Source: Gemmatimonadota bacterium (GTDB lineage: Bacteria; 4572-55; J002). Taken from it: a DNA stretch of 17,742 bases. Each line of letters starts with the position of its first letter. Within the stretch, counting starts at the first letter, position 1. Location of the stretch: positions 1-17,742 of the forward strand of contig RFFQ01000155.1 of the NCBI GenBank assembly GCA_003697105.1, in the 5' to 3' direction. Below are positions 271 through 13,689 of this stretch, piece by piece. Under the pieces are notes generated by a model. It was not told where the DNA came from. It ran no database searches and saw only the letters and a program-made list of their open reading frames with translations. The translations under genes and the position numbers were made by a program.

Positions 271-423
271 GAAAATTTGATGAATTAGACAACCACTTTC
301 TTGGTTCATCCGAACCCCCCTAAATCCTAACCCCGAAACATTGAACATTGCTATTCCCCCTCAAAGATGCTATTATTCCGGCAATTCATTTTTCAGACAC
401 CCTACAATTACGAAAGTAAAATC
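271..423. other. Intergenic leader upstream of the rRNA methyltransferase
   Basis: This is AT-rich, then C-rich, sequence with no convincing promoter, terminator or small gene. The methyltransferase frame is open back to an ATG at 367, but the extra 19 residues do not resemble the family's N-terminus, so I treat 367-423 as untranslated. Confidence 0.4.
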
Positions 424-1653
424 ATGCTCAACCGCAACGATACTCTCGAACTCACCATTGAGAAATTGACATACACGGGTGACGGTCTTGCCCGTCATGA
501 CAACCAAGTGATTTTTGTACCGCAGACGGCTCCCGGAGATCGAGTCGAAGTTGAAATTACCGAATTAAAAAAGCGGTTTGCCCGGGCACAACTCCGGCGT
601 ATCATCAAACCATCTCCGTATCGTATTGAGCCACCATGTGATGCCTTCCAACGGGGTTGTGGAGGTTGTCAGTGGCTTTATTTGGATTATGACGCGCAGT
701 TACAAATCAAACATGCCATCGTTCAGGAAGCCCTTATCCAGCACCACTTGACGAACGTGCCGGTGAAACCAATTTTGGGTATGGATGATCCGTTTCATTA
801 TCGCAACAAAGGCACGGTGATGGTACACGCTACATCCGAAGAAATAACAGTCGGTTTTTACGAACATCGCTCGAATACCATTGTTGATGTATTTGGAAGC
901 GGTACCGGAGAATGTCCGGTACAAGCCACTGCCAACAACACGATGCTACAGGAGATTGGCCGGCGGCTTCGTACCGAGCATCGGATTATCTCCCCGCCCC
1001 AGCGGCTGGCATTTCGAGCGGGTACGGATGGTAAAATTAGCGCCAATCTCCCTCCGCAATGGAAAAATAAGATACAAACTACCAAACATGCTCGTTTTGA
1101 ATTCCGCGGTTACCAATTTCGGGTATTTGGCGCCTCTTTTTTTCAGATTAATACCAACCAGACCGAAAAATTGTTACAGGTGATTGATGGCTACCTCTCC
1201 CATCACCCCATTCGGCAACTGGTCGATCTCTTCTGTGGTGTAGGGCTATTTGCCATCTGTTTTGCCGGACACGCTGAGCAGGTATGGGGCATCGAATCCA
1301 GCAGAGCGGCAATTAAAGATGCTCAAAAAAATCAACATCTGAATCAGACCTCAAATATTAACTGGATTTTAGGACGAGCGGAACGCGAACTCTTCAATCT
1401 ATGGCAAAAAGAGCCGGCTTTGGATACCCTGATTCTTGATCCACCGCGTGAGGGGTGTGACAAGCGACTTATTGGAGACATTACGCAATCTAACCTCCAA
1501 CGGGTGGTGTACGTCTCCTGCGATCCAATGACGCTTATTCGAGACTTAAAACGCCTGCAAACCGGAGGCTTCCAGATTGTGGAACTTCAACCAATTGACA
1601 TGTTTCCGCATACTTACCACATCGAATGTGTGGCGTATCTGGAGCGCGACTAA
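424..1653 (+). CDS. rlmD: 23S rRNA (uracil-C5)-methyltransferase, RlmD/RumA type
   Basis: This enzyme makes 5-methyluridine in 23S rRNA using S-adenosylmethionine. From Met at 424 it is 409 aa. Residues about 5-62 form a TRAM RNA-binding domain. Cys72, Cys79, Cys82 and Cys164 (ECPV) match the four ligands of the RumA [4Fe-4S] cluster. DLFCGVGLF (268-276) is the SAM-binding motif I. LDPPREG (338-344) and YVSCDP (363-368) follow, with Cys366 the catalytic nucleophile. HIEC near the C-terminus supplies Glu401, the general base. The first cysteine pair is spaced CX6C rather than E. coli's CX5C. An upstream ATG at 367 is in frame, but family alignment starts at MLNRNDTLEL, with a weak GAAAG 5' of the 424 ATG. 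The stop overlaps the next gene's start (TAATG), so the two are probably translationally coupled. RlmD, RlmC and dual RlmCD cannot be told apart here. Confidence 0.9.
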   Translation: MLNRNDTLELTIEKLTYTGDGLARHDNQVIFVPQTAPGDRVEVEITELKKRFARAQLRRIIKPSPYRIEPPCDAFQRGCGGCQWLYLDYDAQLQIKHAIVQEALIQHHLTNVPVKPILGMDDPFHYRNKGTVMVHATSEEITVGFYEHRSNTIVDVFGSGTGECPVQATANNTMLQEIGRRLRTEHRIISPPQRLAFRAGTDGKISANLPPQWKNKIQTTKHARFEFRGYQFRVFGASFFQINTNQTEKLLQVIDGYLSHHPIRQLVDLFCGVGLFAICFAGHAEQVWGIESSRAAIKDAQKNQHLNQTSNINWILGRAERELFNLWQKEPALDTLILDPPREGCDKRLIGDITQSNLQRVVYVSCDPMTLIRDLKRLQTGGFQIVELQPIDMFPHTYHIECVAYLERD

Positions 1654-2531
1654 TGCCCCGTGAATACTTTTACCGGATCGATGCAGAAGGGCGCTTATTT
1701 CACGATCAATCTCGCCTGACAGACCCCCAATTCCTAGATTTCTTTTTCCGGCGTTTACAACCAAACCTTACAGATAACTACCCGGATTATCCATTTATCT
1801 CTCTGTGCGGGCAAGAGCGTAATTTCGTGCAGTGCGAGGATACACCCATCGTATATCACACGTTAACACCAACGGGTTATCTGCGGTATGCTCAAAGTTT
1901 GCAAACCCCATTTCAACCGGAACAACTCTGTTTTTCGCTCCAAACGGATCAACTCTACCATCCTGCACCGGTGGGAGGCGTCGGGCGCTTAGCGGCAAAC
2001 CTGACCCACCAGTTAAGCCCCCATCTCCAACCGTGGGGACCCTTTTACAGCTATACCGGTGGGACCCAGATTCATGTGATCCCACCGCGTGAATTACCCA
2101 ATCATCAGCAGATTTTACGACCGCGACCCGATAATGGCTGTTTTGCTTGCGGAGGCGCCAATCCCTCGCAACTTCGGCTCTCCTTTTTGCTGGATACACA
2201 AGCGCAAACGGCTCAAACGTGGCTCGTACCGGATGAACGCTTGCAAGGCGCACCCGGCTGGATGCATGGTGGTATGATCTCGCTCCTGCTGGATGAAATC
2301 ATGGCAAAAGTGCTTTCCGGGATAGGCATTCATGCCGTCACCGGTCGTTTGGAAGTTAAATTTCGGAAACCGGTACTACTCGGTAAATCGATTGAAGTTT
2401 GCGGGCAACTCGTAGAAACTATCGGACGAAAATATGCCCTCCGGGGCGATATATACCAATGGGAGGACAGCCAACGGGGTACACCTCTGGCAGAAGGGCA
2501 TGGTTTGTTTGTGTGGATGGGGTACAAATGA
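1653..2531 (+). CDS. DUF4505 (UPF0598) domain fused to PaaI-like hotdog thioesterase
   Basis: This 292-aa protein has two domains. Residues 1-~145 match DUF4505/UPF0598, the family of human C8orf82. The landmarks are REYFYRID, DPQFLDFFFRRLQPN, PFISLCGQERNF, CEDTPIVY and LYHPAPVGGVG. The function of that family is unknown. Residues ~160-290 are a PaaI/THEM4-type hotdog acyl-CoA thioesterase: a CFACG motif (Cys163, Cys166), then GAPGWMHGGMISLLLDE (199-215) with the HGG loop and acidic helix, then LEVKFRKPV. The hotdog half probably hydrolyses an acyl-CoA; the substrate is unknown. The start at 1653 overlaps the methyltransferase TAA, and DUF4505 members begin near PREYFY. An in-frame ATG at 1626 would add only nine residues from inside the upstream gene. 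No terminator is visible downstream. The domain calls are firm; the biological role is not. Confidence 0.85.
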   Translation: MPREYFYRIDAEGRLFHDQSRLTDPQFLDFFFRRLQPNLTDNYPDYPFISLCGQERNFVQCEDTPIVYHTLTPTGYLRYAQSLQTPFQPEQLCFSLQTDQLYHPAPVGGVGRLAANLTHQLSPHLQPWGPFYSYTGGTQIHVIPPRELPNHQQILRPRPDNGCFACGGANPSQLRLSFLLDTQAQTAQTWLVPDERLQGAPGWMHGGMISLLLDEIMAKVLSGIGIHAVTGRLEVKFRKPVLLGKSIEVCGQLVETIGRKYALRGDIYQWEDSQRGTPLAEGHGLFVWMGYK

Positions 2532-10428: not shown

Positions 10429-10572
10429 GCTAGACCTTAAATATTCCATAACCAAACCCCAACAAGCATCATATAAATGCCAATCCACAACAAAAATCGG
10501 TTGACGCAAGACCACATTTCAAGTTACTTATGAGAAACCAAATCACAACCTTCTCACATGGGGGAAATCATT
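10429..10572 (+). other. AT-rich leader upstream of the HTH regulator
   Basis: TTGACG at 10501-10506 could be a -35, but the expected -10 (TTACTT after 17 bp) is poor. GGGGGAA just before the ATG at 10573 is the ribosome binding site. No small gene or terminator is seen. Confidence 0.3.
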
Positions 10573-11517
10573 ATGAAAACGAATCCAAAGCGCTATTTAG
10601 CGGAATATTTGAAGTCCGAACGCATCAAACGTGGGAATTTATCCACACCTAAATATTTAGAAAAGTACCCGGAAGTGCCCATCTCCAAAGGCTATTACAA
10701 TGAATTGGAAAGCGGGCGGCAGATGATCAAATTTGATAATGCTGAAGCATTGTGTCAGGGGTTAAAACTGAATCGCGAGGAATTTTATTACTATTTGCTC
10801 AAAGATGTGTTGCCCGAAGATGTGTTTAACACGCTGATCCGAACCGTACCACAAAGCACCTTAGTGGAAGAACCTACCGCGATGGTCGATCAACTAAAAG
10901 ATGAGATTTCTGATTTACTAAAAGCCTACGAGAAAGAAACCGAAAAAACCTTTTATACTAGCGGTGAAGATACGTTAGATTATCTGGATCGGGCACCAGT
11001 GGAAGAAACTTTTCCATTGCTGAATTTTGTCTATTCCAAAGATGAATGTACCATGCAAGAATTGATCGAAGTGGGGCAGAAATTTGGCATAAGTGAAGCA
11101 CGGGTTTGTGAAATTTTGGACGATTTTGGCACCTATCACATTGCGCGGCAAATTCCACGCACGGACAAAATCACGCGCTACCGTAAAACACTCTATTTAC
11201 CCCCCACTGAAAAAGGGGATCGGGTAAAAAAGAAGTATCTTAAATATGAATTCGACCGGGTCACGTCATCGCCAGATCGCGCGGTTACCATTGGAGCAGG
11301 TAAGAATTTTATCAATGCTAAGTTTATTTGCATCAAAGATGAGCATTTGGTTTTAATTTACAAACTCATTACCAAATTGATGGCAACTTTGGATGCTAAA
11401 GATACCATCCTCACGGAACGGGATATCCATCCCTACTTTTTTTCGATCATTTTTTCCTCTCGTGAAGAATACATGACGGCATCAGTGACCGAAGCTCATC
11501 CCACACATTCCCCCTAA
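10573..11517 (+). CDS. Uncharacterised regulator with XRE-like HTH and second winged-HTH-like region
   Basis: I do not recognise a named family. The 314-aa protein starts with an XRE/Cro-like helix-turn-helix (about 5-75). Its signs are ISKGYYNELESGRQ, followed by NAEALCQGLKLNREEF, typical of recognition helix and helix 5. A charged, possibly coiled-coil linker (103-127) leads to a second HTH-like stretch (147-190; MQELIEVGQKFGISEARVCEIL). The C-terminal ~120 residues are alpha/beta and could be a ligand or dimer domain. The layout resembles the TIGR02147 type of HTH protein in general shape only. The ATG at 10573 follows GGGGGAAA at good spacing; an in-frame ATG at 10558 would put that site inside the gene. 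It is divergent from the PKD lipoprotein, which it may control, and ends in a strong terminator. Confidence 0.65.
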   Translation: MKTNPKRYLAEYLKSERIKRGNLSTPKYLEKYPEVPISKGYYNELESGRQMIKFDNAEALCQGLKLNREEFYYYLLKDVLPEDVFNTLIRTVPQSTLVEEPTAMVDQLKDEISDLLKAYEKETEKTFYTSGEDTLDYLDRAPVEETFPLLNFVYSKDECTMQELIEVGQKFGISEARVCEILDDFGTYHIARQIPRTDKITRYRKTLYLPPTEKGDRVKKKYLKYEFDRVTSSPDRAVTIGAGKNFINAKFICIKDEHLVLIYKLITKLMATLDAKDTILTERDIHPYFFSIIFSSREEYMTASVTEAHPTHSP

Positions 11518-11584: not shown

Positions 11585-12817
11585 TTACAGCACGCCTTCC
11601 ATACAGCGTACTGTATCCCGGGCAATAACGAGTTCCTCATTTGTGGGCACGACAAACGTGCGGACGGTTGCGCCCTCTGCTGTAATGTCACCTTCCCGAC
11701 CTAGAATTTCCCGATTTTGCACCGGGTCAATGCGGATGCCCATAAAATCAAGACCATGTGTGGCGACTTCCCGCACTTGCCACGCGTTTTCGCCAATCCC
11801 ACCGGTAAACACGACCACATCTGCTCCACCCAGCACACCCATATAGGCACTGATGTACTTTTTCACCCGATAGCAAAACATATCAAACGCCAGGCGTGCC
11901 CGATTGACACCTTCTGTTTCGTTATCCATTACTTCTATAATCTCCCGTAAGTCATTGGAAATGCCCGATACACCGTACAACCCACTGTGTTTATTCATCA
12001 TGGTATCTGCCTGATGTAAACTAAGGTCTTCTTTCGCCATGATGTGCAAAATCACGGCGGGGTCGAGGTCGCCGGTGCGTGTGCCCATCATCAAGCCTTC
12101 TAGTGGTGTGATCCCCATCGAGGTATCTACGGATTTACCATGGTCAATCGCACAGATACTACACCCGTTACCCAAATGAACCGTAATGATCTTTAATTTT
12201 TCACGAGGAATACCGATCAATTGCCCCACCCGGAACGAGACAAACCGGTGCGATGTACCGTGAAACCCGTAACGACGAATTTTATACTTCCGGTAAAAGT
12301 AGTACGGTAGCGGATAAATATAGGCATAAGGCGGCATGGAATGATGAAAACCGGTATCAAAAACCCCCACATGTGCCACATTCGGGAAAAATTCTTTGGC
12401 AATCCGCACTCCTTTTAAGTTTTGGGGGTTGTGTAACGGCGCAAATTCAGAGCACTCATCCACTTGTTTTTCGACTTCCTCATCAATCAGAATGGATTTG
12501 GAGAAGACTTCAGCACCATGCACTAAACGGTGACCGACCCCGGCGATTTCCTCCAAGCTTTCCAAAATGTGCGGGGAATCCCCCGTCAAAACATCGATAA
12601 TTTTTTTGAGGGCTTCGGTATGATCCAAAATTTCCACCACATCTTTATACGATTCCCCATTATATGTGTAGCGAATCTGAGAGCCGGGCAAACCGATTTT
12701 TTCGACCAAACCCCGTACAATGCTATAATCCGCACCCTGCTGGATCAATTCTAGGTCGGTTTCAATGACATCAAATTTAATCGAGGAACTACCACAATTG
12801 AGTGTTAAGATTTTCAT
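11585..12817 (-). CDS. ackA: Acetate kinase
   Basis: AckA interconverts acetyl phosphate plus ADP and acetate plus ATP in the cytoplasm. The 410-aa length is typical. Signatures are NCGSSSIKF at the N-terminus, VFDTGFHHSMP, GFHGTSH, MGTRTGDLDP and FTGGIGEN. By the numbering of the Methanosarcina enzyme plus six, catalytic Arg97, His129, Asp154, His186 and Arg247 are all present. The acetyl-pocket residues Val99, Leu128, Phe185 and Pro238 also match, so acetate is the likely substrate, not butyrate. No phosphotransacetylase is in the window. The ATG overlaps the stop of the upstream dehydrogenase-like gene by 4 bp (ATGA), with GGGGAG inside that gene as ribosome binding site, so the two are co-translated. 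Confidence 0.96.
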   Translation of the reverse strand: MKILTLNCGSSSIKFDVIETDLELIQQGADYSIVRGLVEKIGLPGSQIRYTYNGESYKDVVEILDHTEALKKIIDVLTGDSPHILESLEEIAGVGHRLVHGAEVFSKSILIDEEVEKQVDECSEFAPLHNPQNLKGVRIAKEFFPNVAHVGVFDTGFHHSMPPYAYIYPLPYYFYRKYKIRRYGFHGTSHRFVSFRVGQLIGIPREKLKIITVHLGNGCSICAIDHGKSVDTSMGITPLEGLMMGTRTGDLDPAVILHIMAKEDLSLHQADTMMNKHSGLYGVSGISNDLREIIEVMDNETEGVNRARLAFDMFCYRVKKYISAYMGVLGGADVVVFTGGIGENAWQVREVATHGLDFMGIRIDPVQNREILGREGDITAEGATVRTFVVPTNEELVIARDTVRCMEGVL

Positions 12818-13689
12818 ACAATTTTCTCCCCTTTTTCATTATATTTATAAAACCCTTCTCCAGTTTTTCGCCCTAACTTATTGGCACGAATCATTTTACG
12901 TAATAACGGACATGGTCGATAGCGAGATTCTCCCAATTCTTTGAAAAGATGTTCCATCCACGCCAAAACAGTATGTAATCCGATAGAATCTGCAAGTTCC
13001 AAGGGACCCATATGGAGGTCGTACCCTAATCGCATCGCTTTGTCCACATCCTCAATAGTAGCAATGCCTTCCATCACAATGTGCATGGCTTCATTCAAAA
13101 AAGGAACAATTGCTCGCGTGGTGATATAACCGGGGTATTCAAAGACTTCCACCGCCTCTTTTTTCAGCGTTTGGACAAAATCACGCGCCACCTGAATCGC
13201 CCGGTCACTTGTATTTAAGCCCCGCACCACCTCTACCACTTTCCGGTCTGGCACGGGATAGTGAAAATGCAAGCCAACCAACCGATCCACATTTTCCAAC
13301 TTAGAGGATAGGTCGGTCACAGAAAGCACACCGGTATTCGTGGCAATGATGATCTCTTTTGGAATAATCATTTTTAATCGCTCGACAATTGAAACTTTTA
13401 CGTCGTAGATTTCCGGTGTGCAATCCAACACAAAATCCACATCCGCCAGATCATGTAGATCGATGGTATATTCAATCCGGCTGAGAATCGAGCGCTTGTC
13501 AGATTCCGTTATCCCCCATTTGGCAATCTCCCGGTCTAACGATTCGCTTAATTGTTCCTTAGAAAAAGTGGCGGATGGCTCATCTTTTTCAACAATAATG
13601 ACATGAATCCCTAATTGAGCCGCATTGCAGGCGACCCCGCCACCCATCACACCACCACCAATAATACCAATCCGTTTGAACTCCATCAT
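12814..13689 (-). CDS. 3-hydroxyacyl-CoA dehydrogenase family protein with altered active site
   Basis: The 291-aa protein has the short-chain HADH/Hbd layout. The NAD-binding Rossmann motif is GIIGGGVMGGGVA (8-20), and the C-terminal helical domain has GPLELADSIGL and the hallmark GRKTGEGFYKY. Aligned without gaps to human HADH, the His-Glu pair is kept (His141 = His158, Glu153 = Glu170). Ser137 is replaced by Gly120 (NTG instead of NTS), Asn208 by Thr191 (GYITTR instead of GFxxNR) and Asn161 by Tyr144 (HFHYP instead of HFFNP). It may oxidise an unusual hydroxyacyl substrate, or have lost the classical reaction. It overlaps ackA by 4 bp. GGAGG at 13699-13695 precedes tandem ATG codons (13689, 13686); either may be used. 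The fold call is firm, the substrate unknown. Confidence 0.85.
   Translation of the reverse strand: MMEFKRIGIIGGGVMGGGVACNAAQLGIHVIIVEKDEPSATFSKEQLSESLDREIAKWGITESDKRSILSRIEYTIDLHDLADVDFVLDCTPEIYDVKVSIVERLKMIIPKEIIIATNTGVLSVTDLSSKLENVDRLVGLHFHYPVPDRKVVEVVRGLNTSDRAIQVARDFVQTLKKEAVEVFEYPGYITTRAIVPFLNEAMHIVMEGIATIEDVDKAMRLGYDLHMGPLELADSIGLHTVLAWMEHLFKELGESRYRPCPLLRKMIRANKLGRKTGEGFYKYNEKGEKIV

Follow-up and report, generated by a model that had tools for sequence, protein, structure and literature searches.

A DUF4505 (UPF0598) domain and a hotdog thioesterase domain are fused in one protein encoded in the window (the whole stretch of DNA analyzed here, 17,742 nucleotides), and the same fusion recurs in three genomes of another phylum. 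Both domains are known, and the superfamily that includes the first has already been proposed; the novelty lies in two architectures, DUF4505-hotdog and DUF4505-GNAT, and in the way the contexts converge on genes for CoA and acyl-CoA, none of which was found described in the literature searched. In the reading that we prefer, and to which we give about an even chance, the protein would be an acyl-CoA thioesterase whose N-terminal domain is a ligand- or partner-binding module of the DUF1285 superfamily, plausibly for CoA or acyl-CoA. The features on which the argument draws are, in window coordinates:

367..1653, + strand: rlmD, 23S rRNA (uracil-1939-C5)-methyltransferase (TIGR00479), overlapping the fusion gene by TAATG
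1653..2531, + strand: gene of the 292-aa DUF4505-hotdog fusion protein (open frame, Pfam)
1659..2030, + strand: DUF4505 (PF14956) domain, residues 3-126 (Pfam, predicted fold)
1806..1808, + strand: codon of Cys52, in the S50/C52/E55/N57 patch on strands 4-5 (alignment, model)
2031..2138, + strand: linker, residues 127-162, alignable to the linkers of three Leptospirae fusions
2139..2165, + strand: C163-x2-C166-G...N motif (CFACGGANP), also in standalone hotdog proteins
2166..2528, + strand: hotdog thioesterase domain, 4HBT core at residues 202-258 (Pfam, structure comparison)
2265..2267, + strand: codon of His205, HGG loop (THEM4 alignment)
2292..2294, + strand: codon of Asp214, which aligns with the catalytic Asp of THEM4 (THEM4 alignment)
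2340..2342, + strand: codon of Thr230, which aligns with the catalytic Thr of THEM4 (THEM4 alignment)

Is the fusion real? A single open frame runs from the ATG at 1653, with a GGAG 8 nt ahead of it, to the stop at 2531; GC3 is level across the domain joint (0.50/0.49). The first-pass annotation, which proposed the fusion, named an assembly error joining two genes as what would refute it. Next to nothing is left of such an artifact, whether from assembly or from a sequencing error: beyond the even composition of one frame, the fusion recurs with an alignable linker in three genomes of another phylum, which excludes an assembly error.

Few bacteria carry DUF4505: a sample of 386 genomes spread across families contained it once, in the genome of the window itself (G000, which represents an isolated lineage), and in one class of Spirochaetota, the Leptospirae, 15 of 48 genomes have it. 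Eleven of the 15 Leptospirae proteins are standalone, three are hotdog fusions (L004/G099, L013/G275, and L016/G251), and one is fused to a GNAT acetyltransferase (L018/G204; L031:9290-10336), giving the domain a second CoA-using partner. The scan that found two Leptospirales loci used as bait an alignment that included a putative human C8orf82 sequence; this sequence went into the DUF4505 tree as well, and nothing argued here depends on it or on its position. With the whole window protein as query, the genome contigs returned no relative; viral contigs and phages gave none, and the plasmid matches listed were standalone PaaI-family hotdogs, without a fusion.

The four hotdog fusions can be aligned over their whole length, through the linker as well: relative to the window protein, the Leptospirae fusions are 39-46% identical in the DUF4505 domain, 28-44% in the linker, and 40-46% in the hotdog domain. 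The window hotdog is 40-48% identical to the fused hotdogs as against at most 35% to standalone hotdogs of these genomes, and the fused domains are mutual best matches. A tree of hotdog domains separates the fused ones from the rest by a single branch that is weakly supported (76/55), among long branches. The DUF4505 tree has too little resolution to establish or reject the fusions as one clade (p-AU 0.088; 0.186 when the GNAT fusion is added); in the best tree, the window domain groups with the GNAT-fused domain (91/80). Because the linkers are alignable, the fused hotdogs are mutually closest, and the hotdog tree has such a branch, the simplest and most likely history would be a single fusion followed by transfer or loss, with spread between bacterial phyla.

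In the C-terminal half, the 4HBT family (PF03061) matches residues 202-258 at 25.8-27.6 bits (gathering cut-off 20.6) and H205 sits in an HGG loop, so the annotation of a hotdog domain with this loop stands. The label "PaaI-like" does not hold in the strict sense: the protein scores 16.8 bits with the PaaD/PaaI equivalog TIGR02286, whose cut-off is 118.9, and the nearest structures are 2ov9 and human THEM4, which are the best Foldseek matches of the hotdog half in the whole-protein AF2 model (pLDDT 88.7; E 1.9e-8 and 1.6e-8, respectively). VIA Z scores are 16.1 to 2ov9, 15.2 to the THEM4 CoA-inhibitor complex 4gah, 14.3 to the PaaI structure 2fs2, and 12.8 to Staphylococcus aureus FapR. In the alignment, H205, D214, and T230 are spaced like the catalytic residues of THEM4, namely the His of its HGG loop (H152), D161, and T177, and the three residues are retained in 4/4 fusions. 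The fusion protein probably has acyl-CoA thioesterase activity.

FapR, a hotdog regulator that binds its ligand, suggests another possibility: a catalytically inactive hotdog half that would only bind acyl-CoA and make the protein a sensor. That FapR is among the matches, and that the protein scores too low for the thioesterase models of NCBIfam (TIGR00369 gives 20.2 bits, below its cut-off of 36.6), would fit; all three THEM4-type residues are kept, however, and Pfam finds no DNA-binding domain in the fusion protein, so a sensor is quite improbable. The C-x2-C-G...N motif (residues 163-171), in or near a poorly predicted stretch (pLDDT <50 at 164-171), precedes the hotdog domain and belongs to that half, because it is also present in standalone Leptospirae hotdog proteins.

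If the hotdog half does the chemistry, what does the other half do? The DUF4505 family matches residues 3-126 at 113-116 bits (cut-off 27.3; E 1.7e-32 to 2.8e-33) and covers positions 10-151 of the 177 in the model, near its full length; the concern that residues 1-150 might lack such a match is thereby settled. Predicted alone, this half (AF2, pLDDT 94) has only three significant structural matches, all DUF1285 chains (E 1.5e-6, 1.8e-5, and 3.3e-5; the next match has E 0.15), and VIA gives Z scores of 11.3 to 2ra9 (121 residues aligned, rmsd 3.7) and 10.3 to 2re3 (137 residues, rmsd 4.0), with the next at Z 2.7. The predicted model contains the b3-a-b3 / b3 / b3-a-b3 fold of these structures and carries it to about residue 143, past the Pfam limit of 126. 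A profile-profile comparison by hhalign of 16 DUF4505 with 13 DUF1285-like sequences reaches 98.0% (E 3e-13, 127 columns). These results place the N-terminal half in the DUF1285/DUF4505 superfamily. DUF1285 is reached only by structure or profile-profile comparison: a PDB sequence search with the DUF4505 profile returned nothing (best E 1.3), and DUF1285_N (PF06938) matches the window protein nowhere and one of the 16 DUF4505 rows at E 0.034. Aravind and Grishin, in a personal communication that appeared in a 2010 paper (PMC2954204), had already put DUF1285 and UPF0598 in one superfamily; the comparison made here thus tests their proposal and discovers nothing new in that respect.

For the interdomain cleft, which is lined by strand 4 among others and has no strictly conserved residues, the authors of the DUF1285 study suggested a nucleotide-based ligand, bound, in their argument, without catalysis (PMC2954208). 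The DUF4505 side has 16 invariant columns over 16 divergent bacterial sequences, including R3, S50, C52, E55, and N57; the last four map to strands 4-5 of the model and, from topology alone and not from coordinates, would lie on the wall that matches the DUF1285 cleft. Two cysteines had been singled out as conserved: Cys52 is among the invariant residues, but Cys61 is not conserved. With such invariance, DUF4505 might have catalytic activity of its own instead of serving for binding: an active site at Cys52 or E55/N57 would use the CoA substrate of the thioesterase, or its product, and make the fusion bifunctional; the CoA pyrophosphatase and acyl-CoA oxidation genes that adjoin DUF1285 would be in keeping with this. 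An enzyme is nevertheless distinctly unlikely, given that the residues equivalent to the S50/C52/E55/N57 patch are not conserved in DUF1285, whose authors favor non-catalytic binding, and that the fold matches no known enzyme in the structure search.

Gene neighborhoods bear on the ligand, like the fusions, only indirectly. A gene annotated as CoA pyrophosphatase follows and overlaps DUF1285 in Rhizobium leguminosarum and Sphingomonas; in Rhizobium, Sphingomonas, and Azospirillum the gene immediately after DUF1285 passes the cut-off of the CoA pyrophosphatase model NF007980, and direct reading places a gene of the same type at this position in Methylobacterium, Shinella, and Sinorhizobium. On pSymB of Sinorhizobium meliloti (strain Ak57; L120:4622-5249), the CoA pyrophosphatase frame seems broken early and is unannotated. 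A Paracoccus plasmid copy of DUF1285 has a different neighbor, not CoA pyrophosphatase. A "Nudix" gene next to DUF1285 was noted in the 2010 paper and read as a sign of oxidative stress; added here is that this Nudix, by sequence, is of the CoA pyrophosphatase type. ETF-QO (PF05187 and PF21162) lies at most two genes from DUF1285 in 6 of 11 genomes (the order of G538, plus G675), in divergent or convergent arrangement or one gene apart, and it is also near DUF1285 in Acinetobacter. An acyl-CoA dehydrogenase gene is directly upstream of a more distant DUF1285 member in one case (G564), and an acyl-CoA-synthetase-type AMP-binding gene is near a DUF1285-like gene (L112). Since operons can be inherited, these counts are not independent events.

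Other contexts differ. Many non-proteobacterial DUF1285-like genes adjoin unrelated genes (GDPD, GH3, inositol phosphatase, AAA). In one locus (L095:4844-6400), the DUF1285-like domain ends a 518-aa frame, the Arg-rich N-terminal part of which is probably non-coding. Standalone Leptospirae DUF4505 genes follow GtrA and GT2 genes or sit beside DUF4332/UppP, not CoA genes, and their placement beside cell-envelope genes counts against the CoA idea. In five Leptospirae genomes, a standalone DUF4505 gene apparently closes a GtrA (PF04138) and GT2 (PF00535) set, with the families scanned in L022 and L027 and the set recognized by gene order and length in L024, L025, and L030. One DUF4505-hotdog fusion has tmk and RmuC nearby.

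A thioesterase fusion alone does not imply that the N-terminal domain binds CoA. The domain could instead serve in targeting or in protein-protein contacts unrelated to CoA, e.g., as a tether to a ribosomal, envelope, or electron-transfer partner; the varied neighbors of standalone DUF4505 genes, a DUF1285 cleft for which catalysis has been argued against, and the existence of THEM4 and 2ov9 without a DUF4505 domain would fit such a tether. We regard it as rather unlikely. The superfamily repeatedly adjoins CoA and acyl-CoA genes in different groups, DUF4505 is joined to two different CoA-using folds (hotdog and GNAT), and the invariant S50/C52/E55/N57 patch resembles a ligand site more than a docking face.

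In the reading that we prefer, the hotdog half would assemble into a dimer or tetramer and hydrolyze acyl- or aryl-CoA using D214 and T230. The N-terminal domain would cleave no thioester itself; its interdomain cleft would bind either a partner enzyme or a ligand of the CoA or nucleotide type (CoA itself, acyl-CoA, or a product of its breakdown), and the domain would thereby set substrate choice or regulate the hotdog half. That the ligand is of the CoA type is a tentative prediction. The link between DUF4505 and acyl-CoA, suggested by the first-pass annotation from the hotdog fusion, is strengthened because hotdog fusions occur in four genomes, a GNAT fusion exists, and DUF1285 has CoA pyrophosphatase, ETF-QO, and acyl-CoA dehydrogenase neighbors. 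The accompanying claim of a first functional hint needs a qualifier: the DUF1285 tie and a nucleotide-type ligand were published in 2010 (PMC2954204; PMC2954208).

In the window, the gene upstream of the fusion is rlmD (TIGR00479 at 315 bits, cut-off 183.55), and the TAATG overlap, taken earlier as translational coupling, is real; a functional meaning is not supported. Since rlmD was not found beside the other, Leptospirae DUF4505-hotdog fusions, and the one other genome of the same class that was compared has an rlmD-like gene with neither DUF4505 nor a matching hotdog protein, rlmD is probably a neighbor only, a functional link is unlikely, and the coupling is treated as incidental. Farther downstream, at 11585-13689, genes for acetate kinase and a 3-hydroxyacyl-CoA dehydrogenase overlap by four bases (12814-12817), which suggests acyl-CoA fermentation in the source organism. 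Pfam has nothing at E 1e-4 for the 319-aa protein encoded at 10558-11517, the N-terminus of which looks, on visual inspection, like an Xre-type helix-turn-helix.

Why does a rare bacterial fusion matter? Human C8orf82, located in the mitochondrial matrix (PMC7066081), and DUF1285, with crystal structures since 2007, are both without known function; no experimental function for C8orf82 was found in the literature searched, and one paper's description of it as redox signaling relies solely on the DUF1285 paper (PMC5814406). The DUF4505 fusions and conserved neighbors converge on a small set of ligands, namely CoA, acyl-CoA, and their nucleotide parts. "Function unknown" thereby becomes a cheap binding question on two proteins that already crystallize, and C8orf82 knock-out cells gain a specific one: their acyl-CoA and acyl-carnitine profiles. 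It is possible, if doubtful, that the DUF1285/DUF4505 superfamily as a whole, C8orf82 included, is a CoA/acyl-CoA-binding module in acyl-CoA turnover and flavoprotein-linked oxidation; the superfamily is joined to a thioesterase in this protein and to a GNAT in a spirochete, is coupled to CoA pyrophosphatase in alphaproteobacteria, and lies near ETF-QO in other proteobacteria.

How does the fusion compare with known systems? THEM4/THEM5 and RHA08564 (2ov9) are the closest solved structures to the hotdog half and have the same H/D/T residues at the same spacing, but they lack a DUF4505 domain, and their sequence identity to the hotdog half is merely 14-27%. PaaI, a hydroxyphenylacetyl-CoA thioesterase, has the fold and the HGG loop in common with the hotdog half, yet the fusion falls far under the PaaI equivalog cut-off and no phenylacetate-pathway genes are present among the window genes scanned. 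DUF1285 (PF06938; 2re3 and 2ra9) has the same fold as the DUF4505 half and clear profile homology to it, but not the invariant patch, and the window protein stays below Pfam DUF1285_N. Finally, UPF0598/DUF4505 proteins, C8orf82 included, share a C-G-x-E-x-N motif with the N-terminal 126 residues of the fusion; unlike human C8orf82, which is a standalone protein, this DUF4505 domain is bacterial and joined to a thioesterase.
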